This document shows, in pieces, positions 13,515 through 62,170 of a stretch of DNA of 64,000 nt. Made by a program: the position numbers and the translations under genes. The stretch comes from Antedon mediterranea. Taxonomy: Eukaryota; Echinodermata; Crinoidea; Comatulida; Antedonidae. Each line of letters opens with the position of its first letter. The stretch's first letter is position 1. Location: assembly GCF_964355755.1 (NCBI RefSeq), contig NC_092673.1, positions 31,687,001 through 31,751,000 of the forward strand, given 5' to 3'. The notes under the pieces were generated by a model that was given only the letters and a program-made list of their open reading frames with translations, was not told the DNA's origin and searched no databases.

Positions 13515-13515
13515 A

Positions 13516-14548: not shown

Positions 14549-15085
14549 TTTTACCATTTTAAGATTCATTTAAACAGTAGAACAGGGCATTTAAGATTTT
14601 TGCTTGCAAATTTAGTTTATTTGGGGACTATACTTATTGGTTGCCTTGTTATGTAGGGCCATGAGCATTTAAGATTTTAAGGTTTGTCTGTAATTAGTTT
14701 GTGAATCTACATTTTTTTTACTGAAATGGTTACCTGGAAACAGAGGACAATTTGCAGAATCCAGAAAAACTCATCTGGCGTTGGGGAGGGTAAAATGGTA
14801 CAAAAGGTTTGGGCATTAAAAGGAATTAGGTACTGGGGACCATGTCATGGCATAGAAGCTTTTTGAGCTATTTATTTCCCTTTAATCAAAATTATGGACA
14901 ATTTCTAATATAAATTCTATGTAATTCTATCTCTTTCCTCACATTTTTGTTTATTACTGAAATTTGCATTGGACACCCACCCACGAGACTTCCGCTCGCA
15001 TCCACCCCCAGGGGAAGTACTAGGCTCCGAATGGAGCATGTAACTGAGTTGTTAGTTGTTGTAGAGAGCCTCTATCAAATTGGTA
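14549..15085. other. Non-coding spacer; no gene seen
   Basis: AT-rich. A 63-codon frame at 14947 has no recognisable motif. No repeat or RNA gene was identified. Confidence 0.5.
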
Positions 15086-15094
15086 TTCAACTGG

Positions 15095-16161: not shown

Positions 16162-16225
16162 TTCAACTGGGAATGCTACTAGGTGAAAGTTCATCAAATC
16201 ATCAACTTTGTGTTAATTTCACAGT

Positions 16226-16470
16226 ACTAACTACACTATCAAACTAGTTTGACAAAAAAAAGTGTGATGTGCTCAAACCGCTCAAATATGGTATAGTAGT
16301 GATATGTCGACATCACACAGCCACTGTAACAGACACTAATAACTCATCAAGATGGCCCCTTGATTGTCAGCATACGCTGTTTAGGGTCACCCTCTATAAA
16401 TAAGGTGAAATAAAAATCATGTCCATATTTGGGCATTTTTTGTCACATAAAGTTTAATAGTGTAGACAGA
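16226..16470. mobile_element. Short MITE (CTACACTATCAAACT type)
   Basis: The left end CTACACTATCAAACTAG.TTGACAAAAAA is mirrored by TTTTTTGTCACATAAAGTTTAATAGTGTAG at the right. A half-copy is present at about 31725-31860 in an intron of NLR paralogue 2. No coding capacity. Confidence 0.65.
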
Positions 16471-18082
16471 ACTTAAGGAATAAACTTATAGAAAATCCAA
16501 AATAGAATGATTACACTATTGTACTTTTTGATTTTAAATAATATGAGGTATTGCAGCTGGTCCCTTCACCCATTTGAAAAGGTAACACTGTAGTAGTAGT
16601 GCAATAAGGATTGTTGAAGTTGCTCAATCATGTTATTCTTCAGATGATCTGTTATTGTGTAGGACGTCAGTATTGTTCGTTAGGTTTTATTTATCCAAGC
16701 CCTTACAATTAGTGTAACAAGCAGGTTTATTAATTCATTAAATATTCAGAGAATATTGCGATCATATTTCAAATGAAAAAAAAAGAACATTTTTTTAAAT
16801 AACAATGCATGAAAAATAGGAATGTTTGCATGATGTCATTAAATTGATCTGACCAAATTTGCTTGTAATGGCCCATTAACTTAGTGTGTGGTGACACCGT
16901 GTAGGGGCATGTTAATTTAATAAAATATATGTAAAAAAGTGGCAGATTTTGGCACAACATTTTAAGACAAATATTGTGCTATGCGTTGGCCTAAGACTGT
17001 ATGTAGGCCTACGTGTAACAAAAATAAAATGGTGAACTGGCAAAATTAATATTGGGCGTTTGAATCTAAGGTAACAAGGTTCATCGAATCAATTAATCCA
17101 TTTTCCAAAATCTAACTGTGAGTATACTCATATTATTATTGTAAAAATATATATATATACTGAAATTTAGAGCATTTAGATTTTGTCGTAACAAAATATT
17201 CCAAATATTGCATTTATATCATTCTTTTAAATTGATTTGTACTAAACGGTTACAAATTTGTATAACAATAATCTATTGATAGTCAAATTCGATAATGAAT
17301 TGGCTCCTAGCATGTTATTGTTATGCTTCAATTATTTTGTACAAAAGATAATTAGTATTCAGTCAGCTTCAGCTGTGGCCTGTGCAGGGACCCGGTAATA
17401 GGGTGTGTAAAGTAAGTAACTACTGTAGTGAATCTGAGTGGTATAAGGATAACACTATGGAATTGTGTCGATTATAGTGGTACAGCCGCACAAATGTAAC
17501 CAACAGAAATAATATTGTTTTAGCAAGCATGTAAGTTAACATTAGTTACAGTAACTACTGTGCATTTTAGAAATACGACAGACCATTTAGATGAAGGAAT
17601 ATTACACCAAGATTTATTTTGATTAACAAATGTTATCTACTGTACAAAACATAGTCTGGGTTCCAGACGGAGTTTTTTCTTAATATTAGTAAAAAGATAA
17701 ATATTTTGGCACATATGGCGTTTCATACGTATACTACTTGATTTTGGATTTTCAGACAAAAATCGCGGTTGAAATAAAAACAAATAAATTTAAAAAAAAG
17801 ATAATACAGACTTGGGGCAAGTCTATACAAAACAGTAAGAAATGAAAAATGTAATGTTGCACATGACTGAATGTAAATCTTACTTTCAAGATTGTGTATA
17901 CACAATACTTCAAACAATGTCAATTGCATTATTATTTTCATTTTATTTAACCACAGAGGTTGTTCTTCTCTGGGTGTTTTATAACAGTACTGTACTAAAT
18001 TATATTGTGGAGGAATAATTCCTCCATTTATACAGACCATGCTGGGTATTTATTTATAATATCTATCAATTTTTTTTTGTAG
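16471..18082. other. Spacer upstream of NLR paralogue 2
   Basis: AT-rich, no gene seen. A fragment at about 17704-17830 (CACATATGGCGTTTCATACG ... CAGACTTGGGGCAAGTC) is a third copy of a motif otherwise found in both NLR 3' flanks (12215, 40830). The promoter and any 5' non-coding exon of paralogue 2 should lie here, because 18083 is preceded by a splice acceptor. Confidence 0.5.
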
Positions 18083-18120
18083 ACATGCAGAATGTGATGA
18101 AATGACAGACTCTAAAGACA

Positions 18121-18631
18121 ATGGCAGAAGACAAATTGAGCATCTTGAAAAGAGATCTCAGTAAATTCTATCAAGGAGAACGGTACCTTTGGTTGAGATT
18201 CGTTGTCTTTGATCACATAGAATTGGGAGATCTTACTCGTACAGATGTCAATGGACATACATTGTTTAATTTACTCCAAGATAAAGGTTATGTAAAACCT
18301 ACTAATGTCAACCTTTTATTAGAAGTTACACAACTAACATGTTTGGCAGCTGCAATAGAGCTGGTTACTCAATATATGCTTGCTAACAATGTCCAACATT
18401 GTGATATAAAACGATTGTCACCATACCGAAAACAACTGTTTAAAGCCTTAAGAAAAGTAAATCAAAACGATCTAATTAATGTTATTGCTTTCTATAATTT
18501 GCACCATAATCCAAACCTAAATATTTGGGAAATAGTGTTTGACCTGGAGGAACAGAAGAAGTTAACACAAGATGCAGATAAACTCCAGTGTTTTGCAGAT
18601 CTTCTTCAGACAATTGCAAAAGATGAACTAT
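18121..18631 (+). CDS. NLR paralogue 2 exon 1: tandem death-effector domains
   Basis: Two six-helix death-fold blocks are visible. The first has LSILKRDLSKF...TLFNLLQDKGYV...NVNLLLEVTQL (residues 5-88). The second starts near residue 100 with YRKQLFKALRKV...DLINVIAFY and ends FADLLQTIAKDEL. Hydrophobic spacing and the order helix 2 - acidic turn - LLEx helix 5 fit DEDs such as those of caspase-8/FLIP rather than CARD or Pyrin. Acceptor TTTGTAG at 18082 gives a 38-nt 5' UTR segment. Donor TAT|GTAAG, phase 1. Confidence 0.75.
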
Positions 18632-21600
18632 GTAAGTAACAGGGGTTTAGGTGGTTATTACATTCAAATATATGCTTTTTTTAATGTTTTAATTATTTAA
18701 CTATATTTCATGATAAAGGATATTTTTATCATGAAATATGCTATTTTGCAATTAAAGAATGACTAATGAATGAAAACTATAATAAACTAAATTCTAATAA
18801 ATATTTTAATTGAATAACGTTAAATTATTTTTATTTGCATACAACGCGACTCTATAGCTCATTATGTCGGTTGGTAAACACTAATAGTTCACGAGATAGC
18901 ATTTTTTTGCAATTGTTATCCAAAAATGAGTGAAAATGGTTATTTTACTTATACACGGTCACAATATAACACAAATTAAAACATTTTTTTTACATCCACT
19001 CCTATATGACTGGAGCAGTTTTTAAAAGTTGCTCGAAAAATATTGAAGAATATATTATTAGCTATTGATATTTAAAAAAAATAAAAATATCAAATTTTAC
19101 CCAAAAAATGAAAAAAAATTGTTTATTTTAAAAATATTTTGTAAAATAATGACTGAAATGACTTTTAATGAGAATCAATGTTTAGTATAATTCATCAGCT
19201 TTAATTTGAGCCTAATTTTTAAGAAACGTTCTGTGCCATAAAATAAAAATACTGGTAAAATGTGGGTCAAAAAGTAGGTCCTTGACCTCTGACCCCAAGA
19301 CCCAGCACTCACAACACTTAAGAATTGGGTTTTCAGATGTACCAAAGTATGTCACACACAGAAATCATATTAAGACCAATGGTAAAATATGTGCACTATA
19401 TTGATCCATCTCTCGGACTAGAACTCAAATTTGTGCACGCAACTGCAGCCTTGTTTTAAAGGCTATTTGTTTGGTATTTTCAGGAAGAAGTACTTTTCAA
19501 TAATATAACTTTGAAGTTTCTGAACGTGCACAGAATTTTCGACTTTGCATCTATGTAGTCTAGTGACACATTAAAATGAATGGCTGTTATATTTATTTTA
19601 AAACAAATTCTGATTTTTGTGATTTTCAGTAATTTCATAAAATCATATGCAACTATAGTATAATAAACAATTTATCATACATGACTTTCTAATAGTTTAT
19701 CTTTTATTTTTGTTTAGGTGGAAGCCTTCCAACGTATATCAAACCATGTAGAGATATCCAACATTTGCCAGCAAACTTTTTTAAGCTTGCACTGCTTCCT
19801 GATGCCATAGGTTATGTCAAGAAAATATTTAATAACATTTTACCTGTATTCCCATTTGCCACTGTCAATGAAGCAAGAATGAGTATACATTCAAATACAT
19901 CTATAATATTTGATCTACGTGTATACGATAGAAACGCCCTGTTTAATTTATTGAACCTGTACTGGGAAAATGTACTTATCAAGAAGTTAGCAATCATATT
20001 AGTACCAGAAAAGACACAACAGTTCTTAGAAAACTGGAAAATAAAGATTCATGATAATGACAAAAGTCAAGCTTTTAAGGAACTAAAGGAAAAAGGTAAT
20101 TGTATTCAATTCAGAAAAATCGGTCAGTCTAATTACCGAACCGAAAATAACCGAAAACAACCGAAAACAACCAAAACAACCATAAACAACCAAAAACAAC
20201 CGAAAACAAACCGAAAACAAAATAAAATAATCTAAATACCGAAAACAAATTTTGTATAATATTTTTTTTAATGTTGCCCTCTATTGATGGGTGTTTCTAA
20301 AGACCATAACAGAGAGAAAACCGCGCGCGGAAAAGCCAAGGAAGACCCTACGAAATGGTAGTGTGCACAAAATACAACTAAAAATCGTACAATCAATCAA
20401 TGATAACATCGCATTTACTACAGAATCTATAAAAATATTTTAATTTTAGTCTTTCGATTTTTGATCCAGAAACGAACGCATTTACTCCTCACAATAATTG
20501 TGAATCACGTTAATCCATACTAGAAAGTAAATTGACTATGGTTAATCATGATCAATTTAATTATAGATTTTCAAAGATAATAATATAAAAATGATATTTT
20601 TAAGAATATTGATATTAGGGACTAAAGTATACTTAAAACCAGCTCACGATAAAGGATTCACAATATAATCTATTCAGTAAAATTACCGTAGTCGAGTAAA
20701 TAACGTTTTTATCCTTAATCACTTCAAGGGACGAAAACGCAAAGTTAGGTAAAATCATATGCTTTGTTTTGAAAAGACTAAAAACGAAATGTGTTTTGTA
20801 AGTAAATGTAGTCTACGGTGTATTTCATTGAATTTGTACGATTTTGAGTTGTATTTTAATTGTGCACACTGCCATTTCGTAGGGTCTTGTCTTCCTTGGC
20901 TTTTGCGCGCGCGGTTTTCTCTCTGTATGATGGCCGGTCTTAGCTTTAGAAACACCCATCAATAGAGGGCGACATTAACAAAAATATTATACAAATTTGT
21001 TTTTGGTATTTAGATTTCTTTATTTTGTTTTCGGTTTGTTTTCTGTTTATTTTCGGTTGTTTACGGTTGTTTGTGGTTGTTTTCGGTTATTTTCGGTTGT
21101 TTTCGGTTATTTTCGGTTGTTTTCGGTTGTTTTCGGTAATTAGACTGACCCAGAAAAATTAACAGCTTTTTGCTGTTGTTTATATTAACTCTAACAAATG
21201 TTTATACAAAAATTGAAAAATAAAGTACTAAACCTAGCATAATGTTCTATCTTTTTGTTTTGTTTCCAAATCAGATCTGCTTATGTTTTTACAATATAAT
21301 ATATCGTACAGTCTTTATGGACTAAACCTTGACTTACAATTATATATGTAGTGATTAACAATTCATAAATTATCTTACAGATGAAGTTGTAACCAAAAAT
21401 AAACATGAAAGTTGGAAAGGTAATTTCTGTTTTGTTTCTATTGTATGTTTTTAAAATATTAAAGTAATCTCAAATCTAAACATTTTAAATCAATCTTATT
21501 AGAAACGAATAAGCAAATTTATTTGTAACATATAAATAAAGAAGAAATGAAGATATTAATACTAATGCATGATTGAGAACGTTTGTAGCATAACCGAGAC

Positions 21601-24600
21601 GGTGAGATATTCTAAACACAATTCTCTAAATGCAACAATAACCCTTGCTCGAAAAGGTCTTTAGGTCAGCATTTATTTATAGGATTTATCTGTTTTTATA
21701 GTTTATTCACAAATGAAACTTGTTTTTTTTTGCCTTTTGTTAGGTGCAAAATTATTAGTTCGTCTTGTTAAACAGCAAAGTGATAGTGAACTCCCTGGAC
21801 TGGAAGAACTATTTGGCAATCAACAAAGGTTAGCAAAAGTATGGACAGAGATAAACAAACAGCTTACTACATATTTCCAGAGTATTGGTATAAAGTATGA
21901 GTATCTTGGATCTGGAAGCATAGTGTTATATCTAGTATCATGTGACTCTGGATCTATGAAAGGGCTATGGGAAATGTATGTCAGCAAAAAGCTGCACAAA
22001 GATTTAGCAAAATTATTGGTAGCAGATGAATTCCAGCACATGTTTGCACAACACTTTATTGTTGAGATTGATATACAAGACTATGAAACTGCAATCAGGA
22101 AATTAGATGGAATAGGTAAGGAATCATAATACTTTAAGTAAATAGTTTTTGAGGATCAGATGAACATGTAGAAATAGGCTATTACAGTTTAAATTTGACT
22201 TTTCGTTTACTACCAGTGTCAAATTATCATGTAATTCATTCATTCATTCAATCTTTTATTTCGGAAACTCTGGTCCATAGAAAGTAAATTACATATAAAT
22301 GAAATAAATAAAATAAACAAAATTACTACTACTCATCTCAGGCCCTTTGATGTATGTAAAAATTGTGTAGCATATCTTTTTTGTGTGTGCAGTGCTTGTA
22401 TTAATAGCATCTCACACAATGAAATTCTCTATCTCAGTAGACTTTTATGTTGACTTGTACATCGAGAACCTTGAAGTTATATGTCTAAAAAAATAGTTTT
22501 AGCCTAAAATCTGCATTGATAGCTTTTAATGCAGGGATGTAAAACAAAATAAATACATTTTATTTTGTTTTTACAGTTGCAGTTGGACCACCAAATACAG
22601 ATTCAGGTATGTTGTACTTTAACAGAATAAATAATTTTAAAGCTCAAAAATTTGTATTCCTATATCATCAGATATATAATTATTCTGCATAAAAATTATT
22701 CCGATATAGCAATATTTAGTGAAAATTTGACTTATTTTATATGAGTAAATATTTATTGACTTTCAAAGATTGTAAAGATTTTAACTGTTTTGATGACAGA
22801 TTGGTTTTCACAGCCATGTACCCATAGTGAGCTTGAGTTTACCAAGTTTAACTGGTTTAAATCACTATTTCAGTGTGCACTACCTGAGTAGGCTTACATT
22901 ACATTTTTTTCAACAGTAGAATGTTAATGTGAACATTAAATACCGTAAATCTTCTAATAGTAACCCACACTCTAATAGTAACCCCCTTCTAATAGTAACC
23001 CACACTCTAATAGTATCCCACACTCTAATAGTAACCCACCTTATAAGTCAATCTATAATAATAACCCACTACTCTATTAGTAACCCATTGTGGTTACTAT
23101 TAGAGTCAGAAAAACTTATGATGCAGCCGTATTTTGAAAATAAAGAGATAATGCATGTTGATCTCGGGAGTTGGTGAGGATTGAGTGTTTTAAAAAGTTT
23201 ATAACATAAAGTTAGAGTTCAGCGAAATTTGTTTATTCGTACTGTTTTATTATTTTACTATGAGGTGCTGACCGGAAAAGTTGGGGGTGGGTTACTATTT
23301 TCAGGTGCCTAATTTAAGATTAGTAATACAGTAGTAACCCACTACTCTAATAGTAACCCCCCTTCTCATAGTACCCCACCCTAGAAAACAACCAAAGAAT
23401 AATAACCAAGGGTTACAATTAGAAGATTTACAGTATCACCTTTAATGTCTATTTTATCTCTATGCTTGTGGAAACCTCCCTGAACCTTCTGTTCTAGCAC
23501 AAATTGTTATAGTGCAAAAGGTGAATATGGTCATTTAGACAAGATTAGTGATATAATTTATATTTTCTTATCAAACAGAAACATTTGGAGACTCTCATTC
23601 ATCTGTGATTAGCAGCATGGAGCAAGGAGCAGAATTTGGTTATTTACATTTTTTTTCTCATTTCAATACATAAAGAAACCCAGAAAAACGACCACCACCC
23701 ATTTAATTTCATATTTTAGCATGTATGCAGACCCCCACCTAAACCCTAACCACTGTCAGCCAATAGCTTTTAATGTTTCAAGCTGGAATCAGTGGTTTAT
23801 TAAAGAAAAGTTTACTTTTAAACAAAAGGTGTGTTATAACAAAAAATGAATGTTTTTAATCATCAAATAGAGAAAATATTTCAGTTGTCTTAGTCTTGTT
23901 AAGTAAAGCAGTCATCTTTCAACTCATGAAATAGTCTCACCATCCAACTGATAAACATTCATTATTTATGTAATATTATACCAAAGTGTACATTTGTGTA
24001 TAGTGACAATAGAGTTCATCTTATCCTTATAGTATGGATGTGTATGAATTTGTTAACTTTTTACAGGTCAAGTTGGAACATTCGAAAGATCAAGCCCAGA
24101 TCTAGGTATGTTATGTTAAAGAGTCACAAATTTACTTCAGAAAAAAGTTCACAGCTGTCACGGTTATAATACATATTGTTGCATAGGATTATATTTTATA
24201 ATAAACAATAACAATTTGAAACCTTTATTACTGTAACTGGTTCAAAACTGTGATGACCTCCCAGAATGTATAACCAAGATTATTCGTTTATATTATTTTT
24301 AAAAAGGAGTTCTCATTATATTAGTCTTTATACTATTTAAAATTGTATTGTCAGTTACCCTATTTTATAAATAAAGCTTTGCTTCATGCATTACCACCCC
24401 CCCCCCCCCCTCCCACCTTTTTTTGCGTTGTCCTTAGGGTCCTTACAAGACACGGCACTGCCTTCTAGTTTGTGACCATATCAACAGTTAATTTATTTTA
24501 ATTGATTAATCTATGTTCAAAATGTTGATTACTGTTGATAAATAAATGTATATGAAATTAACTTGGAGCAAATACCTTTCAATAAAGTTAATTTTTTGAA

Positions 24601-27600
24601 CATCATCTGAGCTTTTAATATACAAGAATACAATGCAGAATGGGAGACTATACCTTTCACATACCAAAACCAAGGACTCATTCTTAATAATGGTACATAT
24701 ACATAATGGATTTTTTAGTCCTAGAAGAAGCAGCTACTTCTGTTAGTGAACATTACATGGTATCTGTTATGGATCTCAAAAGTGTTGGATCACAAAGCGG
24801 TGAGTTCTTATATGCTGATATCAAACTTCTTGTGTATGCAATCGTGAAGGAAATTATTCTCTAATAATCTTAATCTTAGTTATTCATTTTGACAAAAAAT
24901 TGGATCCAAACATTTTTTTTACCTAAAAACAACTGTAATTAAAAGCAAAAAAATAATAAAATTTTCTGCCAGCCAATGGTTTTTTGTTGAATTTAACCAT
25001 GAAAACATAGGCCTATATATTTTTTTTGGAAGAACTTGATTAAAGCTACAAAATGGTCAATTCAAAATCTGATTGATTGATTTGTCATGTTTTTGGGGAA
25101 AATACATCTTTAAGTGTAAATTTAAAAGCCACAATTTGGAATTGGCACTGTGAGATGGTATACACTGTGCATTCACTATTTTTATACCCTGAACATTTGT
25201 AGTAACACAAATCAAATTGAAATATTTTGTGAACATTTTTTACTTTTACAGTTATTTTATTTTAATTGTTGATAAATAAATGAATATTAAATAAAATGAA
25301 CCTATAGCTACCTTTTAATAAGGTTAATTTTGTGAACAGCATCCGAGCTTTTAATATATGCATTTTTAAATTTTAAAGATGAAATTGGAACATCGGAAAG
25401 ATCATTTCCAGGTATGTTTGTTGTATTATGTTAAAGGGTTGCTCCTGGTTTAACATTAATAATAACTTTTTCCATAGTATTTCCTATGCAACATTGATTG
25501 TCCTTTTGTAATAAACAATACAGATTTTAAAACTGGAGTTTGCATAGGAACCTTGTAACCTCTAAACTTAGCAACTTTAAAATGATAAAAATATTTGTTA
25601 TTATACCTATGTTCATTTATTTCTAAACTTAGCTGTCTCTGACAGTGGACGTTACACACTCTCTGTTATAGACCAAAGTGTTGGATCAAAAAGTGGTGAG
25701 TACATTAAGATACAGTAGGACTTGAAAAACTACCTCATTTGTCCCTTTGACATCATAACCGCAAACTCTTCCTTTGTATCAGTGAAAATAATAATACAGA
25801 TTAAACAAAATGTAAATGAATAGATTAATAGTTAATGCCTTAAATAAAGTCAAGTAAAATGTGCGAATTGAGATCAAAATAATCATACTGCATGACATGA
25901 TCAACAGTTAAAATAAATGACACAAAGAGCACTGTGACAATTAGATAACAATGGTAATAAGCACTAAATAAGAAAAATAAAGAAAAAAGGGCAAAGTAGT
26001 ATATAGACAATATCATTAATAAGAGGTGGATAATATATTTTTATGGAGATGATAAAGTAATAGGCTGTAAACATATTTGTATTTAAATTAGGAATTAAGA
26101 AAAGAAAGAATACAAGTAGAAAAAGTGGGAGACTTTTCTGCCAGTCACATGTTGAAACCAGCATACACATTCTTTGTTATTTTTGGTTTTTTTTAGTCCT
26201 AGAAGATGCAGCTACTTCTGTTAGTAAGCACTACATAGACTCTGTTAAGGACCAAAGTGTTGGATCACAAAGTGGTGAGTTCTTATATGCTAATTAAACT
26301 TCATGTGTATGTAATTGTGGAAGAAATTGAGATTTAATTGATACTCTCTTATAATCTTAATTAAGTGTAAATTTAAAAGGCAAAATTTAAAATTGGTATG
26401 ATAGATGGCACTATGAAATGGTACATTTTTAGCAACACACAACACAACTAAATAAAATTTGATAAATGTCTAGTGAAAGTGATTTTTTGTATGACTAAAT
26501 ATGTATTGACTTTCAAAGATTTTAAATATTTTGACAACAGATTGATTTTCACAGTCATGTACCCATGAACAACATAAATACTTTTAATACATGAAAATGT
26601 ATTATTAAAATGAAAAGGTTCAAATATATGAGTTGGTGTGTTTGTTTAGGAGAGTGACTCTAACCTCATTCAAATTACTAAATATGCTATTATTATTTAT
26701 ATAAAACCTAGCTGCTTCTGGAAGTGGACGTTACACGCTCTCTGTTATGGACCAAAGTGTTGGATCAAAAAATGGTGAGCTCTTACCTTTAAAGATAGGA
26801 CTTAAGAACTAGCTCATTGTCACGAACTCCTCTCACGTATGTTTCCGAGCGGTTGAAAATACCTTAGGAACTCCCTTGTGACATAAAAGTATACACACAA
26901 ACAACTCAAAAACAAAGCTTTAATTTCAATCAACTTTAACTTTTAACAATCCAGTAAGCACTTTAAACAACAGCTTCACAATAACTTTACAATATAATAT
27001 CCAACCTCTAATCCAACCTTCTTCTACAAAATAAATGCTTCAATCAAAAATCCTTCTCCCTTTTACAATTGTCATACTTCCCCTTATATACAAGATGCTC
27101 CTATCCTTCTAGATCATTCTTTATACTTCTCATTATTACATGATTACAGTTTCTATTAATAGCATACTGGAATGTTCCTGATTGTTCTTATTAATTATAC
27201 ATGGTTTCTTAAATCAAAACATCTTATTCTAGAATGTTCATGTAAATACTATGTTACTCTATATGTTAGGGAATGGTAATTTATTACACTCATGCAAAGT
27301 TTACCTTTCTATCAGTAAACAATAATAATAGTTTATAGATAAAAGTAAACTTTATGGCATGATCACCAGTCACGAAAAGCAATAGGAAACAGTTGAATAA
27401 AATTGGTGATTGGCCGTAAATGTATTTGTATAAAATTAGGAAAACTTGCATTAAAGAAAGAATACAAGGAAAAAATGTAACAAGTTGTAACCAGGTTTGC
27501 ATACTGATAAGAGGCCTGTTTTTGTTCCAAGATGTTCCAAGTTGTTACTGCGCGCGTGTGTTGCCCTGGTATTGAACTGACCAATCATATATTAATCAAA

Positions 27601-30600
27601 TAGAGCGTATACAATTTGCTACAAGATAAAACAAGGATTATGAATTACGCAGAAACAAAAGTTGCAAGTCGTCTTTCCATTTATTTGTTCACAATACTGA
27701 ACCCATCAAGTTGCCTGGTAATTCAAAGTAGTCCTTCTAATAGATGTTAACATGATAAAGAACATAACTAACTAAATAAAAAACGCCTTTAGGCTGAAAA
27801 AATGTATAAGGAAAGTGTTATTTTAAAAATAATTTAGAATTTACAAGCACATCATATATAGTTTTTTAAGTGTTTATGTAAAAGTCATAATTAAAAAGTT
27901 CTATATGATTTTTTATTAGCTGCACAAACATACTCCAACACGACTGATATTGAAAAAGAAATAAAATCTGTTGAAGGTAGGTAAAAATATTGGTCCATTT
28001 AAATGAAAATAATAGTAATAGTCTCTATAATCACAATGACAATCATTGCTGAAAACAAATTGTTTTGACAACCATTATTGAAAGTTCAATGTGATTTGTT
28101 TATCAGGTTCAATAAGGTTCTATGCAGGTCGTAAACAAGAACTTGAAGAAGAACTTGCTGAAACTGAACGTGAGTCATCATTTAGAAACTAATTATTAGT
28201 AGAACAACTAACAAACTATATGAGGAATGAAAAAAATGGGTTTGTTACTATTGTAATTAGTGATGAGTTAACTCAAAGGTCAGAAATGTCATTTCCTGTC
28301 ATTTTTTACTATAATGTCCAATTAGACTGAATACGCATGTATACCTTCTGATCAATTTGAGACCAAAATTACCTTGCTGTGACCAGTGGTTTTCAAAATG
28401 TAAGGACCTATTGGTATTTTGGTCTTATAACCTTTCACCTTGACCTTTTGCCACATTTTCAAAATGTGTAGCCAAGGCAAAAATGATTGTTTGACCATTC
28501 TAAACCAATTTCTGAAGTCAAATTCTCTGGACCTCAAAGACGTGCATACAGTACAGTAATAAGAAAGCATTAACAATTTGTAAATAATAATTTATTTTTT
28601 TATTATTACAGGTTTATTAAGACTCAATGAAAATCGTAAGCAAAATCAAGAAGAAGAACTTTCTGAAACAGAAGGTGAGTCATAATACATAATATTATTA
28701 CATATTGTTGATTTGTTGTCATGTGCATTTTATTTGGTACACATATACTGTACTTGCTTGCTCCAGCATTTAATTCTGACCCAGAGTTTTTCGGAGAGAT
28801 AGATGCCATGTTTTGCGTCTGGCCAGATGAAAGGGGCTACCTGTACATTTATAGATGTTGTGGCCCACAATAATTAAAAGATGAAGCAAAATGAAAAGGT
28901 ACAATTACGTTGGCTACATGCAGTGTTTGTTGAAGGCATCCATGCTGAAGGGATTTTAATGTACTGGTACATGTCTTGAACTGTTTTGATATTGCACATA
29001 ATTTTGTGTTACGTTCCTGTGCTTGGAGGATGACTGTTGTTGATGAAGGATTCTGGTGGTGAGAGGATGCATTACCCATACGGGGAATTCATCCTGTCAC
29101 CTACTGATTTTGATGTTGGAAGGGAATGTTGGGATAGTGTCTGTACTTACATTGGTCGTGTATGTTGTTTAGTCTAATAGTGCATCTATCTGTCTGACGG
29201 CTTAGTTTTATCAACTATGAACTTGTCTTGATGAAAATCAATTTGAAATTTCCAGGTGTCCGAATCATGGCACTGTCCTAACCATGGATCATTGAGGTAC
29301 ATGAATATTGAAAATGTGACGAGTTTTAAAATACATTCCTTTTCACTAAATAATCTTTCGCATGGTGAAGTCCACGATTTATAAATTTACACCTTTAATG
29401 ATCTTCGATTGTAAAATCTAAACAGTTACTCCTAATCGTTCAAATTTGGTATCAATTTGAACAAAAAATATAACATTTTCACGTACATATCTATCATTAA
29501 TATTGAGGGAATATTGTTAAATTAAGAGTTTTATAGAAACAGTACTAGTACTAGGAGGTTACGGTCCAGGGGAAAAATACCGGGGGGAGGGGGTTTAGGG
29601 GAATGTCCGTGGGTGAAATGTCCAGGGGGAAAATATCCTAGAACCGATTTCACAACATTAGGATATTATTATTATTATTATTTACATGTTTATAAGCATT
29701 ATAAATTATAGTTACGTCCTGTAATTTGTGAGTTTCTTGCGGTTGGATCCATGTTAAAAATAATATTACTTTTAAAGCAGCTGGCCTATATACAAATATA
29801 AAGTGTCTGAAAACCTGGCCTTTGGCATTCTATTTAAGACAAAAGTGGAAAAATAATTGAGCGGCTTTAGAAGTTGCATACTTTTTAATTGTGCATTATT
29901 CACATGCACAACACATGATGTGAAATAAATCAATCAAATGGCAATAATACATTCATAAAAATGTATTATTAAAAGTAAAGTACAATTAAAGTGTATTCAT
30001 CACATGTATCGCATGTTAAAATGCCAGCATGTTAAAATGCCCATGCCAGCTCACTCAGTTGGTTCTATTGTTTTTTTTGTATGTCGTGTTTTTCATGTAT
30101 TTTATATTTGGCAATAAAAGAATAAGAATAAGAAAATACAATAAAAGAAAAATAATGAAATAATCAAAAAAACTTGATACCATTTTATTTTATGTCTTTT
30201 ATAGATTTACTAAGCCACTATGACTCGCTTAAAGAAAAACTTAAAGAGATTATAAGTAAAGGTAAGTTTAACACATTCAAGAATAGCATTAGAATTTATA
30301 AAAAATGTTGTAAAAACCTTAACTGTATTTGATTTCTTTTGATAGGTAGAGACCGTGAAATGCAGAAGAAAGAACTACTTTTGCCAACTGAAGGTAGGTT
30401 TTGGAGACAATTTCTTATATAACTAGAGGGCACTCTACCTTCAATATATTTTTCCTACATACAAATTTCCTCCTGAAAAAAAAAATTTTGTTTGTTTGTG
30501 ACTTGACACTTTACTCTGAACCTTAAGTTCAACAGAGTTTTGAAGCAAACTGTGACCTGTAGAAAATGAAATATATATATAATATATTGTAAATAGTTTT

Positions 30601-33600
30601 TGTGGATTGTGACCTTTGATCCTACAACAAAATTCAACTACAGTACTCTTAGATGATGGATACAAATTGAATTTTGGCAAGAATTTGGTTGATAGATCAT
30701 TGTGACCAACTGTACTTTTTTCTGTTCTTTTTTTATTTTTTATTCCAACTTTTATCTACTGGTTTTATATATATTTTGTATTTCTTTATTGTCTAATTAA
30801 TTTATTTTCTTTATTTATATATATTTTTTTTTTTTTCCTTCTCTTATTTAAATATTTTGTAAAGGCAATCCCGTCACAAGATTGTAATCTTTTTGGGATT
30901 TGCCTTCGTCCATTTTCTTGTTTTATCACTTGCCATTTTGTTTTTGTTACTTTTGTCTTTTGGACGTGAATAAATGTTCCTTGAATTGAATTGAAAAGTA
31001 AAGATAGGAAAAAATCATAGTAATCATAGTATAAATATTGTGGAAGCTCCAAGTAAGATGATGTATTTGATTTTGTTTTTTGGAAAGGTGTTGGAGGCCG
31101 TGAAATACAGAAAGAAGAAATACTACTTGTTTCAACTGAAGGTAGGATTTGGAAACAATTCCTTACATTATTAGTTCTAATATCAGATAAATAATGAATT
31201 TGGACTTCTAAAGTAAACCTCATTTAGCTCTGTGTAATAATGAAATGTATACACAACGTGCACACCAAAAACCAAAATACATACTGTAAATAACAAAACA
31301 GATTCAAAAATTGAAATACATAAGTGCCTGTCATGATCAATCATTAGATCATTACAATTTTGTAGAAGAATGTTTACAATGTATAAGATTGTTGTAATAA
31401 GATGTTCAATTTGGTTTTGCATAGCTAAAGGAGACCATGGGATGCAAAAAGAAGAACTACATCTTTCAAAAGAAGGTGCGTTTTAAGAATACAAATTATT
31501 TTATTATAGTGCAACATTTCATTGTTTCTGATCATGATCATAGCACACATAATCATGATGTATTATGCTTATTTTGGAGATGAGCAGATGCAATCCAAAT
31601 CTTTTCCTCTCAACTGTCCCGGATATGTACTTTACCTGTCTCACACAAGATATAGACTGTGGTAGTCACTGAGATTTGATTCTTTATTCTTAGAGCATTG
31701 ACGAGAGACAACCTCTACCCTTAAGCCTTGTCTACACTATCAAACTTTATGTGACAAAAAAAATGTGGTGTGCCCATATATGGACATGATGATGTCATAT
31801 CACTACCATGTTTAAGCATAGCACTACCATATGGGCTAATTAAGTAGTCTGCATGATTACAGTGCTTGCTTTTCAATTGATTTACTATATTCAGGTGAAC
31901 TTCTAAAAAATTATGAAAGACGTAAAGAGGAACTTCAAGAAAACCTTTATTCAACTAAAGAGCGTAAGTTTATAAATTAGTGTTTTAAGTACTTTATACA
32001 CATTACATTACAATTGTATTAACTTTATATGAAATTGATAACACAATAAGAATTTTTCATTTGATAACTAATGAATCAAATTAGCAGTTATAATTTTGTT
32101 ATTATTGTGATTGTTGATTATAAATAGACAAAATTGGATTATATTTAAAAACAATTTGGGCAGTGAAACATGAAAAGTACAGTATGAATATTTTTACCAG
32201 AGCCAAAAGTGAAATAGCAAGTACTAATTAAATATAAATAAGTTCACAACCTTTGTGCTCGGATTATAAGAAGAGAAGCACAGAAAAGTTGTTTTAATTA
32301 AAACTTTTCCAGGTCGCATACTACAAGTATTATTCCCAATTTGCTTTTAAATGGTAGACATAAAACACAAAAACTGTTTCACTTATTTGTTTTTTGTTAA
32401 TTTAGGAATATGGTAAGTTCATTGATTAATCGTTAGCAAACATTTTCTATAGAAAAAGAGTCTCGTTTTATATTTTGTCAAACATTCTGCGGGATAATGT
32501 TCTATCATTATTAAATTACAATAAACTATTTTCTATAATTAGACAAATATCATAACCATAAATTTTAAATTTGTTTTTTATTCTAGTTATTTGTACTATT
32601 TCTTGTTTACAGAACAAATAGAAACGTATCTACTTAATAGACACCAGTGGCACAACATCAACAAATTTACACCAAAAATTTGTAATCCTGATTTTGTAGT
32701 TGATGTAAATGATGTTTTCAGTGATTTGGAATTCTGGGAAAAGAAAAGAAACGAGCCTATAACGTTAGATGGTATGTTAAATGTTATCAAATCCAAACCA
32801 GCATGTAAAGTTCTTATAGAGAGTGAGATGGGTACTGGTAAAACGACTTTATTAAGATACTTAGCATACAATGCCAAGGAGACTATTAAAGCCCTTGAAG
32901 GTAAAATCGTATTCCTTTTAAATGCAAGAGAGTTAGATACAAATAAGAGCATCTTAGATTTGATGGTAAAGCAACTGAAAATGAAAGATTTCAGTGCAAG
33001 GACCAATCTTCCACATGATTCAAATTTGATTAAACGATTCATAGTAAATCATGTGGATAAAGTTGTGGTGATGTTAGACGGCTTAGAGGAATTAAGGTTT
33101 AAAAATACAAACTTAATTACAATGTTGAGAAAAGAAAACCTAGAGAAGAGCATTGTGATACTTACAACAAGGTCAGGGAACCTTGATGAATTCATAAAAG
33201 TGATTGATATACATGTAAGAGTTGCTGGATTTAGTGAAGATTCTATAGGAAAGTATGTTGACAAACACTTTGGGTATTTTGGTAAACCAGAATTGGGAAA
33301 TTCCCTTAGAAAGGAATTGGGTATTGGCAAACAAGTTTGGAATCGTAAACACCCCGAAATTTTTTCATTGTGCAACAATCCCATGTTTCTTCTCACAGTT
33401 TGTATTTTGTGGGAAGATATGCAATGTCTTCCTCATAATAAAGCTGACGTTGCTAAAGTATTATTTATTAATATTTTGAATCAGTTTGAAAAAGAGAAAT
33501 ACCCAAAAATCTCTAAATTTAAGAAAATTCCATTGGAATATGAAAATGCTATGATTTTGTTGGGGAAAAGTATGTTTAACAGCTTAAAAGTAAATCAAAC

Positions 33601-35005
33601 CTCAATAAACAAACGAGACCTTAACGCCAACAAGGATATTGTTGACTTGGCTTTGAAACTTGGATTTGTTTATAGACATGCACCAATTGGAAAATCTAAC
33701 TTTGAAGTGATTTACATGCCTCTTCATAAATTAATAGGGGAGTCATTGGTAGGGTTTTACTTGTGCAAATTATGTGAAGCAGAAAGTGTGGAGTGCACAA
33801 AGGATACACAAGAATTGCTTACCCAATTGAGTGATGATGACTGGCAGATGATAAGAGAAAGTGAGCATTTAGAGGGGGCAAAACAGTTTGCAATTAATTT
33901 CCTTGATGGTGATGCGGATAAATTATTAAAGCATTGGATTACAGATAATGTATCATATCAAGATCAATTTTTCCGCAGTTGTTATATGACTGTGTCAGCC
34001 GACTGCAAAGGAAGAGTTCTTGCCCACATTTTAGGCCTTGCTAATGTAGTTAACTTTGACATGCATAATTCCAATCTAACAGGTGATGTAATGAATGAAA
34101 CGATTAGAGAGTGCTCTTATAGAGGATTTGAGTTGACATTACATGCTCTAAATATTAGTGATAATTACTTTAGTGACATTGATGGTGTTTTACTAGGTAA
34201 GTTTTTGAGTACATCGCCTAACCTGATTAAACTTGGCATGCATGATTGTCAACTATCAGGTAATATAATGAATTATATGATTCTAACATATAAAGGAAAT
34301 GAGTTGAGATTGCAAGAGCTTGATATTGGAAATAATGATATCAGTGACATAGATGGTACTTCACTAGGTACTTACTTGAGTAAGTGTCCTAAGCTGGTTA
34401 AACTTCGCATGTATGATTGCAAACTATCAGGTAATGTAATGAATGAAATGATGAGAGCGCATGCAAGAGATAAGTTAGAATTACAAGAGCTTGATATTAG
34501 GAATAATGATATCAGTGACATAGATGGTGCTTTACTAGGTACTTACTTGAGTAAGTGTCCTAAGCTGGTTAAACTTTACATGGATAATTGCAAACTATCA
34601 GGTAATGTAATGTATATAATGATGATAATGCATTCAAGAAATGAGTTAGAATTACAAGAGCTTAATTTTACGAATAATGATATCAGTGGCATAGATGGTG
34701 CTTTACTAGGTACTTACTTGAGTAAGTGTCCTAAGCTGATTAAACTTTACATGGTTAATTGCGAACTATCAAGTAACGTAATGAATGAAATGATGAGAGT
34801 GCATGCAAGAGATAAGTTAGAATTACAAGAGCTTGATATTAGGAATAATGATATCAGTGACATAGATAATACTTTACTAGGTACTTACTTGAGTAAGTGT
34901 CCTAAGCTGGTTAAACTTCGCATGTATGATTGCAACCTATCAGGTGATGTAGCTTATATTGTGGTCAGAGAGTGTAATAATAGAAGAATCATGTTACTAA
35001 TGTAG
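18121..35005 (+). CDS. NLR paralogue 2: DED-DED-(TRADD-N-like)x2-linker-NACHT-LRR, 20 exons
   Basis: Joining 18121-18631, 19718-20095, 21744-22115, sixteen mini-exons (22577-22606, 23579-23638, 24067-24105, 24719-24799, 25379-25411, 25633-25695, 26197-26274, 26712-26774, 27920-27976, 28107-28169, 28612-28674, 30205-30261, 30346-30393, 31088-31141, 31425-31475, 31895-31963) and 32613-35005 gives 4,563 nt, exactly 1,521 codons. Every internal junction is phase 1 with GT-AG borders. Domains: tandem DED (about 5-168), two TRADD-N-like domains (about 175-420), a Ser-rich then Glu/Lys-rich linker (421-723), NACHT (about 760-1100), LRRs (from about 1230). By family knowledge this is a cytosolic innate sensor that would recruit DED partners. 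ATG 18121 is chosen because TGA at 18103 closes the frame upstream. Introns hold a foldback element, a MITE, a solo LTR and LINE tails. Exon use is predicted, not observed. Confidence 0.85.
19718..20095 (+). CDS. NLR paralogue 2 exon 2: TRADD-N-like domain, copy 1
   Basis: The 126-codon phase 1-1 exon encodes PANFFKLALLPDAIGYV, then SNTSIIFDLRVYDRNALFNL and EKTQQFLENWKIKI. The order SIx-hydrophobic strand, 'L..L...Y/W' helix and final I.I..xD strand parallels exon 3, so the two exons look like a domain duplication. The TRADD-N-like assignment is inference from the pattern; a structure search would settle it. Confidence 0.7.
20121..21150. mobile_element. MULE-like foldback element, copy 2 (intact, 9-bp TSD)
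   Basis: Target duplication CAGAAAAAT at 20112-20120 and 21151-21159. Termini GGTCAGTCTAATTACCG and CGGTAATTAGACTGACC lead into arms of about 330 bp built from CCGAAAACAA subrepeats and then the TTGCCCTCTATTGATGGG block. It sits in the intron between exons 2 and 3 of NLR paralogue 2, 26 nt after the donor. No transposase. Confidence 0.88.
21744..22115 (+). CDS. NLR paralogue 2 exon 3: TRADD-N-like domain, copy 2
   Basis: A 124-codon phase 1-1 exon. It encodes a helical start (KLLVRLVKQQ), then QLTTYFQSIGIKYEYLG, then GSIVLYLVSCDSGSMKGLWE, VADEFQHMF and IVEIDIQDYETAIRKL. The GSIV strand, LW helix and xIDxxDYE end resemble TRADD-N-like domains that accompany NACHT proteins in many invertebrates (family knowledge, not searched here). 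Donor GATGGAATAG|GTAAG. Confidence 0.7.
22220..22400 (-). mobile_element. Probable LINE 3' tail remnant in intron
   Basis: Read on the minus strand it ends in an A-rich, ATGAATGAATGAAT tail, typical of CR1-type 3' ends. No coding remains. Confidence 0.35.
22577..22606 (+). CDS. NLR paralogue 2 mini-exon 1
   Basis: 30 nt, phase 1-1, borders TTTTACAG / GTATG. Peptide VAVGPPNTDS. Confidence 0.6.
22941..23435. mobile_element. MITE with TAATAGTAACCC minisatellite, TA-flanked
   Basis: Left CCGTAAATCTTCTAATAGTA is mirrored by right AATTAGAAGATTTACAG. TA at both edges suits a Tc1/mariner-type duplication. The left half contains about six CTCTAATAGTAACCCAC repeats. Intronic in NLR paralogue 2. Confidence 0.7.
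23579..23638 (+). CDS. NLR paralogue 2 mini-exon 2
   Basis: 60 nt, phase 1-1, acceptor AAACAG. The donor GTTATT is weak. Ser-rich peptide beginning ETFGDSHSSV. Less certain because of the donor. Confidence 0.45.
24067..24105 (+). CDS. NLR paralogue 2 mini-exon 3 (type B)
   Basis: 39 nt, phase 1-1, borders TTTACAG / GTATG. Peptide GQVGTFERSSPDL. Paralogous to mini-exon 5. Confidence 0.65.
   Translation, partial: VKLEHSKDQAQI
24719..24799 (+). CDS. NLR paralogue 2 mini-exon 4 (type A)
   Basis: 81 nt, phase 1-1, borders TTTTTTAG / GTGAG. Peptide VLEEAATSVSEHY... ending SVGSQS. Near-duplicate of mini-exon 7, and the following intron start (GTGAGTTCTTATATGCT) is also shared. Confidence 0.75.
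25379..25411 (+). CDS. NLR paralogue 2 mini-exon 5 (type B)
   Basis: 33 nt, phase 1-1, acceptor TTTAAAG, donor GTATG. Peptide DEIGTSERSFP, a homologue of mini-exon 3. Confidence 0.6.
25633..25695 (+). CDS. NLR paralogue 2 mini-exon 6 (type A')
   Basis: 63 nt, phase 1-1, borders ACTTAG / GTGAG. Peptide AVSDSGRYTLSV... ending SVGSKS. Near-duplicate of mini-exon 8. Confidence 0.75.
26197..26274 (+). CDS. NLR paralogue 2 mini-exon 7 (type A)
   Basis: 78 nt, phase 1-1, borders TTTTTTTAG / GTGAG. Peptide VLEDAATSVSKHY... ending SVGSQS. Paralogous to mini-exon 4. Confidence 0.75.
26712..26774 (+). CDS. NLR paralogue 2 mini-exon 8 (type A')
   Basis: 63 nt, phase 1-1, borders ACCTAG / GTGAG. Peptide AASGSGRYTLSV... 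ending SVGSKN. Differs from mini-exon 6 at only a few residues. Confidence 0.75.
26818..27288 (-). mobile_element. Solo LTR (Gypsy-like) in NLR intron
   Basis: A 471-bp segment begins TGTCACGAACTCC and ends TTATTACA, flanked by the 5-bp duplication CTCAT (26813-26817 and 27289-27293). Read on the minus strand it starts TGTAATAAATTACC, has a TATA-like TATATAAGGGG and ends GGAGTTCGTGACA, which suits a Ty3/Gypsy LTR. No internal retrotransposon sequence remains. Confidence 0.82.
27920..27976 (+). CDS. NLR paralogue 2 mini-exon 9
   Basis: 57 nt, phase 1-1, borders TTATTAG / GTAGG. Peptide AAQTYSNTTDIEKEIKSVE. It marks the change from Ser-rich to charged peptides. Confidence 0.65.
28107..28169 (+). 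CDS. NLR paralogue 2 mini-exon 10 (coiled-coil type)
   Basis: 63 nt, phase 1-1, borders TATCAG / GTGAG. Peptide GSIRFYAGRKQELEEELAET. The split codon at its donor is C|GT. Confidence 0.7.
28612..28674 (+). CDS. NLR paralogue 2 mini-exon 11 (coiled-coil type)
   Basis: 63 nt, phase 1-1, borders TATTACAG / GTGAG. Peptide RLLRLNENRKQNQEEELSET. Same length and pattern as mini-exon 10. Confidence 0.7.
28675..30204 (+). other. Large intron of NLR paralogue 2
   Basis: 1.5 kb with ATT microsatellite near 29670 and a G-rich block at 29570-29640. I looked for further phase 1-1 mini-exons and found none convincing. Confidence 0.45.
30205..30261 (+). CDS. NLR paralogue 2 mini-exon 12 (coiled-coil type)
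   Basis: 57 nt, phase 1-1, borders TTTTATAG / GTAAG. Peptide DLLSHYDSLKEKLKEIISK. Confidence 0.7.
30346..30393 (+). CDS. NLR paralogue 2 mini-exon 13
   Basis: 48 nt, phase 1-1, borders TTGATAG / GTAGG. Peptide GRDREMQKKELLLPTE. The exon and its downstream intron start are duplicated as mini-exon 14. Confidence 0.7.
30840..30995 (+). mobile_element. LINE 3' tail remnant in intron
   Basis: It has an imperfect hairpin around AAGATTGTAATCTT with flanking GGCAATCCCGTC and GGGATTTGCC, and ends GTGAATAAATGTTCCTTGAA with ATTGAA repeats, a usual CR1-type 3' end. Confidence 0.5.
31088..31141 (+). CDS. NLR paralogue 2 mini-exon 14
   Basis: 54 nt, phase 1-1, borders GGAAAG / GTAGG. Peptide GVGGREIQKEEILLVSTE. 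Paralogous to mini-exon 13. Confidence 0.65.
31425..31475 (+). CDS. NLR paralogue 2 mini-exon 15
   Basis: 51 nt, phase 1-1, borders GCATAG / GTGCG. Peptide AKGDHGMQKEELHLSKE. Third member of the MQKEEL type. Confidence 0.65.
31725..31860. mobile_element. Half-copy of the CTACACTATCAAACT MITE
   Basis: CTTGTCTACACTATCAAACT followed by TTATGTGACAAAAAAAATGT matches the arms of the element at 16226-16470. Confidence 0.5.
31895..31963 (+). CDS. NLR paralogue 2 mini-exon 16 (coiled-coil type)
   Basis: 69 nt, phase 1-1, borders ATTCAG / GTAAG. Peptide GELLKNYERRKEELQENL... This is the mini-exon with a direct homologue in paralogue 1 (2513-2578). Confidence 0.78.
32613..35005 (+). CDS. NLR paralogue 2 exon 20: NACHT and about five LRR units
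   Basis: Residues 724-1520 of the model. The acceptor is TTGTTTACAG. The P-loop reads ESEMGTGKTT at about 32819-32848: the first glycine of the GxxxxGKT consensus is Ser (residue 794), while Lys800 is kept. Walker B is VVVMLDGLEEL, with Glu where paralogue 1 has Asp. The sensor segment VILTTRSGN and NPMFLLTVC are conserved. LRRs run from about 34138 in units of 57 residues (four full, one partial). This exon aligns with 4206-10828 along its whole length apart from LRR number. The ATPase may be intact but weaker, which is inference. Confidence 0.88.
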
Positions 35006-35465
35006 TGTCATATCATTGAGAAGTAGGCATCTCAAAGTTGTTTATTTTATTACTTCTTATTGTATTACTGCCTGGAATGCCATGATAGACAATGCAGGTG
35101 CTTTTGTAGGCCAGACAACAGTTGTGGTGGTTTGATTGCCATTTAGTATGATTTGGGTATTGTAGTAACTTTACTGGGTTACTTTGGGTTATGTTTTTTT
35201 AATTTTTTTATTTTATAACATAGCATTTGTGTTGTTCAGTAATGTTAAGTGAAAGTGCTATTAAACTATGTGGTATTTAAATCATTTGTATGAGTTGTTT
35301 CAGAATGTGTTTTTAAAAATCAATCAATTTTTAGACCTGAACACATTGAATTTTGTGTGGCATTATTTACATTGTTAATACTGTTATAATAATGATGTGT
35401 TAATTTTTTTTCAATTTGAAAATGTTTGTGTATGTTTTTGTTTACAGTAATATAAACTTATAATA
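35006..35465 (+). other. 3' UTR/flank of NLR paralogue 2, first part
   Basis: Contains blocks homologous to the paralogue 1 flank (GCAGGTGCTTTTGTAGGCCAG vs the 10950 region). It ends at the Helitron insertion. Confidence 0.6.
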
Positions 35466-36829
35466 TCTATATTATAAGTGAGAGAGTTTGTCTGTCTGTT
35501 TGTCTGTCTGTTTGTTTGTTTGTTCTTTATACAAAATTTTGTTACTGCACATAATCTTACATATGGGGTATCAAAATGCCTGCAATTGTACCGGGAATGT
35601 CCTAAGCTATATTTCAACATCATCCGCCACCTAGGATCCATGTTAGGGACCAAAATGTGGTCAAAACCCCCACTTTCGATGTTTGTTCGTTATACAAATT
35701 TCTGTTTCTGCACGTAACCATACGTATGGGGTATCAAAATGATGGCAATTGTACCCGGAAGGTTTTAAACTACATTTTAAAAAATTCCCCCGACTCCTGG
35801 GGTTTTTGTGGGAGGGGTGGGGAGGGGGGGGTGTGGTGGTTTGTGATGTCAGTTTTGCTAGGGCTCGGGGTTGTAGGCTATCGAATTGTAAAATTATACT
35901 ACAAAAGTTTGACAGTATTTTAATTATCCTCACCAAGGCGTATATAGATATACATATTTTATTCATTAACCAATATGACACCTATTCAATTACACATTTA
36001 GCAAAGTACTTTAACCATATCCAGCTATGTATCGGTCTCTTGGATTTTCTCATTACAGACATCCATTCCTGTGTGAACATACACACGTTGTTTACCGTTA
36101 CTGTGTTCAACTACATTACGATGCCTCCAAGGAAAAAACGTCCATTGTGGGAGAGTGGATTTGGGAGTTGTGAGTTGGGAGTTGTGGTTCAGGGGATAGT
36201 GGGGGTTTTGCTTTGCTATTGTGTTTGGATTTAATTATTCCTGGGAAGCGGCTGTGAGTTTGGGATGGGGATTTAGGCCTATCACCATGACCGAAACTGT
36301 ATTTGGAATGTTTTAAACTACATTTGAAAACTGCCACTTCAACACATCACCCAGTGTATCTGGGGTGTGTTTGTAGGGGGAGGTGGAAGAGCGAAAATAT
36401 TGGCGTAATGAAGTAGCCTATATGCTTGGAATTGTACTAGGAAAAGTTACTATATTTGAACTGTCTAGGGGAGGAGTTAAGGTTTGTTGATTGTGGCTGG
36501 GGTGGTGAGAGGAGAAAGAAGGCTGGGGGCCCGCAGTATCTAAATTAGATATTTTAATTATCAGCCAATATGACACCTATTCATTTACACAATTTACAAC
36601 ATACTTCAACCATTATTAGACCCATCATAGCTATGTATACTCCTCTCAATTTGAAGCTTACGTTGAATTGAATTTGTCCATCACTGGGAAGAATTTGTTT
36701 TTAAAAAAGAGTATGGGGTGGTATAGAAGAAGGGTGGAGATTGGTGAGTATAGACAGATACTGGCGTCGGGTGTTGAGAAGGCTTTAAACTAATTTTGAA
36801 ACCCGCCCTGGGGCGGGTATAATTGCTAG
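35466..36829 (+). mobile_element. Non-autonomous Helitron
   Basis: The 5' end TCTATATTATAAGTGAGAG follows a host A. The 3' end has a GC hairpin (ACCCGCCC / GGGCGGGT, 36801-36818), then CTAG at 36826-36829 followed by a host T. TC start, 3' hairpin, CTRR end and A/T insertion are the Helitron rules. Inside are diverged repeats (TATGGGGTATCAAAATG at about 35562 and 35725; CCAATATGACACCTATTCA at about 35970 and 36565). No Rep/helicase coding. Confidence 0.85.
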
Positions 36830-61940: not shown

Positions 61941-61993
61941 ATTTTTTTTTTATAGTTTTTAATTTAAGAGAGATTATTTAGAGGGTTAGGTTT

Positions 61994-62170
61994 TTAATAT
62001 TTAGGAAGGAGTTTAATATTTAGGAACGAGTTTAATATTTAGGAACGAGTTTAATATTTAGGAACGAGTTTAATATTTAGGAACGAGTTTAATATTTAGG
62101 AACGAGTTTTATATTTAGGAACGAGTTTTATATTTAGGAACGAGTTTTATATTTAGGTACGAGTTTTAGG
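61994..62170. repeat. 19-bp minisatellite AGGAACGAGTTTAATATTT
   Basis: About nine near-perfect copies. The last three share an A-to-T change (GTTTTATATTT). Confidence 0.88.

Follow-up and report, generated by a model that had tools for sequence, protein, structure and literature searches.

Families of NOD-like receptors (NLRs) in invertebrates are large, and changes in their architecture have mostly been inferred from lists of domains. In the accessible part of a study of the zebrafish NLR-B30.2 family (PMC4852459), N-terminal peptide repeats lie on single exons and their types are not tied to NACHT groups, an independence that the authors interpret as exon shuffling. In the case of human NLRP3, deletion of exon 3 alters the oligomer state and the localisation of the protein, and its removal leaves IL-1beta release without significant change (partial text of PMC13226650). 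Here we describe an NLR gene of the crinoid Antedon mediterranea, contained in a stretch of 64,000 nucleotides (nt) of contig NC_092673.1 (positions 31,687,001 to 31,751,000; assembly GCF_964355755.1), hereafter called the window. The linker between the putative death-fold head and the NACHT domain of this gene is predicted to be spread over 16 mini-exons. We consider it probable that this array is a lineage-specific spacer which expanded as its exons were duplicated in tandem, and that it occupies a frame-neutral junction at which genes exchange N-terminal modules.

To obtain the gene model, positions 17500-36500 were read and predicted exons were joined, every exon border being a prediction from DNA alone. 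This gave one plus-strand gene at 18121-35005 (Table 1), in which 16 mini-exons fill the interval from the exon ending at 22115 to the NACHT exon starting at 32613. All 16 measure 30-81 nt, have lengths that are multiples of three, are bordered by GT-AG and lie in phase 1 on both sides, as a preliminary description of this DNA had claimed. Its frame of 20 exons closing at 1,521 codons, stop included, is reproduced when exon x is kept and m0, a further mini-exon upstream of the 16 that was absent from its count, is left out. With both m0 and x, the model comprises 21 exons and 1,534 codons with one stop only, which is terminal; with m0 and without x, it has 1,514 codons. The m0 exon and both TRADD-N-like exons are likewise phase 1-1. 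Since all linker junctions are in phase 1, exon gain or loss and swaps of heads would keep the frame, and the frame neutrality proposed earlier thus holds. Counting m0 and x, mini-exons supply 948 of 4,602 coding nt (about 21%).

The predicted product is an intracellular-type NLR, with a tandem death-effector-domain (DED)-like exon followed by a pair of TRADD-N-like exons, about 300 residues of linker and an exon encoding NACHT and leucine-rich repeats (LRRs). The earlier assignment to NLRs is borne out by matches of the terminal exon to NACHT (PF05729, above cut-off, with the P-loop GTGKTT in the translation) and of its C-terminal part to LRR_4 (E values in Table 1); neither FISNA nor B30.2 was reported for this exon at E up to 1. 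In the case of exon 1, a DED match at E up to 0.1 was found in seven of eight aligned paralog exons, and the caspase-8 tandem DED was matched in the PDB at E 0.0088 over positions 10-162. The TRADD-like_N family (PF20694) matches exon 4 below cut-off and two of five members, and no TRADD chain is among the PDB matches. Viral nsp8, a dynein and a clostridial neurotoxin chain were weakly matched in the PDB by the head profiles, and these hits were taken as chance. The start of exon 1 is charged and DED-like, and no signal peptide was seen by eye. The linker of 301 residues consists of a Ser/Thr-rich half (28%) followed by a charged half which looks coiled-coil-like by eye.

Short open segments could in principle be pseudo-exons, i.e. 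open AG...GT segments which the spliceosome ignores, so that few would enter the real transcript. Borders derived from sequence alone, the weak donor of x and the lack of a match for m1 (and equally for m0) in the paralogs would agree with this. We counted candidates, defined as splice-framed symmetric open segments with overlaps counted, using a splice matrix trained on the window gene. The linker (10.5 kb) contains 19 candidates on the forward strand and none on the reverse, compared to 2 and 1 at window 36001-64000 and 1 and 0 at 10900-17500, and 50 shuffles gave a mean of 0.42 and a maximum of 2. In 16 paralog loci that had no part in the training, 70 forward candidates stood against 12 reverse ones, with no forward excess in four of these loci (C4q, L010, L017 and L019). 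Conservation between paralogs is centred on the mini-exons as well. All eight plus-strand matches between paralog C4r and the linker fall on mini-exons (random mean 1.03; 0 of 20,000 placements did as well), and so do eight of the nine from paralog C4s (random mean 2.03, P 5e-5), which has one extra match, located away from the mini-exons on the minus strand. The forward-only excess and an alignment almost confined to mini-exons rule out chance open segments, and it is highly improbable that the array consists of pseudo-exons.

Exon families and their serial duplication, both part of the preliminary description, were recovered. Duplicate pairs that were compared span 70-89% nt identity (83% for m12/m13 and 76% for m2/m4; others in Table 1). 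Donors are alike within families, namely GTGAGT in most B and D9 exons, GTAGGT in most C exons and GTTATT in all three X exons. Repeated stretches were found in the flanking introns too, and therefore segments of the genome were duplicated, not spliced RNA. Together with the differing copy number between paralogs, these repeats demonstrate that the predicted linker grew via tandem duplication of whole phase 1-1 exons plus some flanking intron. A family B peptide used as query matched four places only (two in the window, one in C5p and one in C4t), so that the family is confined to the clade of the window gene, as far as one peptide search shows.

The genome that was compared amounts to 354 Mb in 18 contigs and yielded at least 103 NACHT matches. 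COX1 gave no match, and a tektin exon matched chain 8snb best (174.7 bits, compared to 136.2 for 7ung, the next); the former is from sea urchin and the latter from human, so that this one exon points tentatively to an echinoderm. Across the nearest paralogs the family order X/A/B, C, D, E, F is conserved and copy numbers vary; the latter are lower bounds obtained from similarity and splice borders. Thus, 16 linker mini-exons in the window compare to 12 in C5p, at least 7 in C4r and at least 9 in C4s. The closest gene, C5p (C5:5.05 Mb), has a NACHT 90-91% identical to that of the window gene and a head of one tandem-DED-like and two TRADD-N-like exons. Its linker comprises one exon without counterpart in the window gene and three family B exons (one of them only weakly similar), and then m8-m15 one to one, the m10 acceptor lying 9 nt further in and m12 being 3 nt shorter, both in frame. 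In the case of C4r, family X occurs twice and B, C, D9, D11 and E once each. C4s is the tandem neighbour with its NACHT exon at window 4166-10828, and has the run C, D9, D11 twice. The NACHT of both C4r and C4s is 66% identical to that of the window gene and their linker introns barely align; AG/GT borders and phase are mostly preserved in the paralogs. C4q is decayed, with a stop in its m15 and its NACHT in two pieces. For C4t (C4:32.08 Mb, minus strand), the nearest NACHT among the matches listed is that of C4q, on the opposite strand and about 21 kb from the C4t B exon. Locus L033 (C4:32074001-32084000, minus strand) shows TRADD-N-like exons and family B mini-exons, one of them peptide-identical to a C5p exon; among the matches listed, no NACHT exon lies beside it on the minus strand, and it is perhaps a partial duplicate.

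Variation of this kind would also be expected if symmetric exons multiply harmlessly in a disordered linker, whose length and sequence would then have no function. The copy numbers of the paralogs agree with such neutral expansion, as do the m8-m15 exons of the window and C5p, which differ at 31 nonsynonymous and 3 synonymous positions (dN 0.094, dS 0.036, the respective divergences), so that the residues carry no sign of constraint. Positive selection on the linker was rejected as an explanation, as the excess of nonsynonymous differences (31 of 34) does not reach significance (p 0.075, or 0.090 in comparison with NACHT). However, frames, borders and family order persist at 66% NACHT identity, where linker introns scarcely align, and between the window and C5p the mini-exons are 87-94% identical as opposed to 82-89% for three measured introns. 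Neutral expansion is thus possible but doubtful.

To describe the junction between head and body, 26 loci with a NACHT exon were examined (window, C5p, C4q, C4r, C4s, L009-L020 and L023-L031; C4t is not counted). The matrix of DED and NACHT identities covers 22 of these, omitting C4q (decayed), L029 (no DED match by tblastn), L011 (no DED match) and L020, the NACHT exons of the last two not having been fetched. The DED match of L018 is interrupted by a stop, and this locus was used as far as that point. L023 and L024-L027 share 91-92% identity in NACHT and 18-19% in DED. Conversely, L024-L027 and L030/L031 are 94-95% identical in DED and 71-75% in NACHT, and L015 is 75-80% identical to L013 and L023 in DED and 54% in NACHT. 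In the case of the window gene and C5p, the DED identity is 43% and that of NACHT 90%.

In line with these values, four of five approximately unbiased (AU) tests reject a shared history of N-terminal and NACHT exons. The NACHT data reject the DED clades (p 9.8e-7 and 3.2e-4) and the DED data reject two NACHT clades (p 0.001 and 0.003), where the groups were picked after the identities were known and the trees were built under a simpler model (mixture off). Two breakpoints could be mapped, both of them in sister genes and none in the window gene; they fall within the intron that separates the DED exon from the linker. Homology of L023 and L024 starts at L024:5280, past the DED donor at 5200 and before the linker acceptor at 5336. 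Between L024 and L030/L031, 96% homology stops at 5230, i.e. 30 nt into the DED-linker intron, and resumes at 5293 with 77-80% over about 55 nt. Altogether, AU tests and breakpoints demonstrate that predicted N-terminal and NACHT exons recombined in several sister genes, though not for the window gene itself, and in these sister genes symmetric phase-1 exons were exchanged through introns. L027 contains at 4077-4124 (plus strand), downstream of its present DED exon, an apparent tail of the other DED type, a possible recombination scar.

Other NLRs of this genome bear predicted mini-exon arrays at the equivalent position that are unrelated to the families of the window. Such segments number seven in L013 (C11:21.6 Mb) and four each in L012, L030 and L031 (contig C3), a total of 19 which end mostly in a K-S-E-T-like motif; for 14 of them symmetric phase-1 borders are predicted. 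When one L013 exon was used as query, 12 genome matches were obtained, seven with E above 0.1. Ten of the 12, two of them in L013 itself, lie on the same strand as a NACHT exon among the NACHT matches listed and precede it by at most about 10 kb; the exceptions, again among the matches listed, are C3:751377 and C1:2777164. At C3:2.33-2.44 Mb, members of a tandem cluster have a single-exon linker with a 15-residue unit present once (L024-L026), twice (L027) or three times (L023).

Taken together, the mini-exon string suggests a frame-safe joint for remodelling sensors. As a mechanism, most or all mini-exons would be spliced in and would form a spacer between the death-fold head and NACHT. By analogy with the human NLRP3 linker, the length and stickiness of this spacer may set the reach of the head and its freedom relative to the NACHT ring. 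The junction would tolerate remodelling, since an exon or a head could be gained, lost or swapped with the frame intact.

Several points weigh against this reading. It assumes constitutive inclusion of the mini-exons, while the donor of exon x scores 2.4 compared to 8.9-14.1 for the remaining 15 linker exons, which served to train the matrix. One plus-strand match of C4s falls off the mini-exons, and no borders are predicted for five of the 19 segments that form the unrelated arrays. Only one or two linker candidates are found in L015, L016, L019 and L024-L026, and a long array is therefore neither required nor universal. The DED data do not reject a clade of the window gene and C5p (AU p 0.209), so that the contrast between these two may reflect conversion of the 3' half, not a head swap. 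Finally, single-sequence structure predictions of exons 1 and 4 (not of the linker) were unusably poor, with a mean predicted local distance difference test score of 49.9 and 44.8.

The low donor score of x bears on a further alternative, namely combinatorial alternative splicing, in which subsets of mini-exons would vary by cell or infection and one gene would give many linker isoforms, as schistosome micro-exon genes do. Any subset keeps the frame, as all junctions are phase 1, and in family X the weak GTTATT donor is kept in three of three copies, found in two paralogs, which fits regulated inclusion; exon x is consequently the best candidate for skipping. Additionally, modular LRR exons of NLRP3 are alternatively spliced according to the accessible part of PMC6642158. 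On the other hand, the donor scores of the other 15 exons suggest efficient inclusion, again by a matrix trained on them, and duplication alone also yields a uniform phase. We therefore regard combinatorial splicing as unlikely. A selected diversification device, which would combine a frame-neutral, head-swapping hinge with regulated inclusion of weak-donor exons tuning linker length and partners, seems quite unlikely to us; if true, many receptor geometries would derive from one germline family.

As a probable spacer grown by duplication, the array makes the junction between head and NTPase readable in DNA, through the duplication of tiny symmetric exons, lineage-specific arrays and swaps with breakpoints in the adjoining intron. 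It offers a concrete system to ask whether the linker that joins death fold and NACHT has a tuned length, and whether receptors evolve more easily owing to the structure of their genes. In practical terms, annotation of such genes may miss exons of 30-60 nt.

Table 1. Predicted exons of the window NLR gene (window positions; lengths in nt; identities in nt).
Feature	Position	Strand	Basis or remark
Exon 1: start codon, tandem DED-like (tDED)	18121..18631	+	Pfam DED 2.8e-5 (below cut-off); caspase-8 tandem DED best PDB match of profile
Exon 2: TRADD-N-like domain, phase 1-1	19718..20095	+	aligned with exon 21744-22115 and paralog exons
m0: mini-exon, 39, phase 1-1	21381..21419	+	donor scores 10.3; unmatched in paralogs
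Exon 4: second TRADD-N-like domain, phase 1-1	21744..22115	+	Pfam TRADD-like_N E 0.0013, below cut-off
m1 (A-like), 30	22577..22606	+	73% identity to m2; no paralog match
x (family X), 60, weak GTTATT donor	23579..23638	+	two copies in paralog C4r, equal length and donor
m2 (family A), 39	24067..24105	+	gene model, repeat comparison
m3 (family B), 81	24719..24799	+	gene model, repeats, paralog comparison
m4 (family A), 33	25379..25411	+	gene model, repeat comparison
m5 (family B), 63	25633..25695	+	89% identity to m7, 87% to a C5p exon
m6 (family B), 78	26197..26274	+	87% identity to m3
m7 (family B), 63	26712..26774	+	family B search, C5p comparison, identity to m5
m8 (family C), 57	27920..27976	+	relatives in C5p, C4r, C4s
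m9 (family D9), 63	28107..28169	+	relatives in C5p, C4r, C4s
m10 (family D9), 63	28612..28674	+	75% identity to m9; present in C5p
m11 (family D11), 57	30205..30261	+	relatives in C5p, C4r, C4s
m12 (family E), 48	30346..30393	+	paralog comparison
m13 (family E), 54	31088..31141	+	paralog comparison
m14 (family E), 51	31425..31475	+	paralog comparison
m15 (family F), 69, coiled-coil-like by eye	31895..31963	+	relatives in C5p, C4s
Terminal exon: NACHT + LRRs, stop codon	32613..35005	+	NACHT 9.4e-16; LRR_4 1.1e-25; 171-nt LRR repeat x4.6

Elsewhere in the window, the neighbouring NLR at 4166-10828 forms one open frame 2,220 codons long, in which the 171-nt (57-residue) LRR unit occurs about 29 times, compared to 4.6 in the gene described here. 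LRRs would thus expand within one exon, and the linker by whole exons. An intron element of about 1 kb at 20130-21140, with complementary ends rich in AACCGAAAAC / TTGTTTTCGG, is also present near the neighbouring paralog and looks like a fold-back transposon. At 37469-38766, two overlapping open frames are reverse transcriptase-like by eye, perhaps a broken long interspersed nuclear element (LINE), and a tandem repeat at 61993-62166 has a 19-nt unit in 9.2 copies with 98% matches. No Rfam match was found within the window.

Several known systems share features with this locus. The preliminary description had likened it to the micro-exon genes of Schistosoma, which, in the accessible part of PMC10526429, code for secreted proteins and consist of short exons whose lengths are mostly multiples of three, with long introns in between. 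Many short exons are indeed shared. However, membership in this class, whose genes are composed of exons of 3-81 nt, was rejected, as mini-exons here supply about one fifth of what codes for an NLR of intracellular type. The DED and TRADD-N lineage expansions of marine invertebrates show a constant region with variable flanks (PMC8195603, seen as partial text); the TRADD-N match is weak in the window gene, and mini-exon linkers are not described in the accessible part of that work. According to the accessible part of PMC4284660, symmetric 1-1 exons are preferentially shuffled and expanded in lancelets and other metazoans, as described genome-wide and chiefly for domain exons, whereas the present case concerns tiny exons in the linker of a single receptor family. 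Regarding serial mini-exon linkers in NLRs, titles and beginnings of abstracts of the papers listed gave none but the zebrafish case, a survey that leaves most subscription papers uncovered, so that others may be published; in the accessible part of a sponge NLR paper (PMC12909245), the words 'exon', 'intron' and 'linker' are absent.

Human NLRP3 resembles the window gene in that a separate, skippable exon encodes the spacer between a death-fold head and NACHT (PMC13226650 and PMC6642158, both in part). There, one linker exon of 40 residues takes the place of sixteen, and the two are likened by layout, not by homology. With the zebrafish NLR-B30.2 genes, the window gene shares membership in a large NLR family and repeats arranged one per exon upstream of NACHT. 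The zebrafish repeats have about 30 residues and two main types, in the portion of that study at hand, as opposed to many families of roughly 10-27 residues here, and zebrafish has FISNA and B30.2, neither of which was reported for the NACHT exon of the window gene, whose heads are tandem-DED-like and TRADD-N-like. The zebrafish family is the closest precedent, for the array as well as for the swaps. As far as the papers surveyed show, what appears new in the crinoid is the number and variety of tiny exons, the presence of several unrelated arrays in one genome and their position beside mapped swap points.

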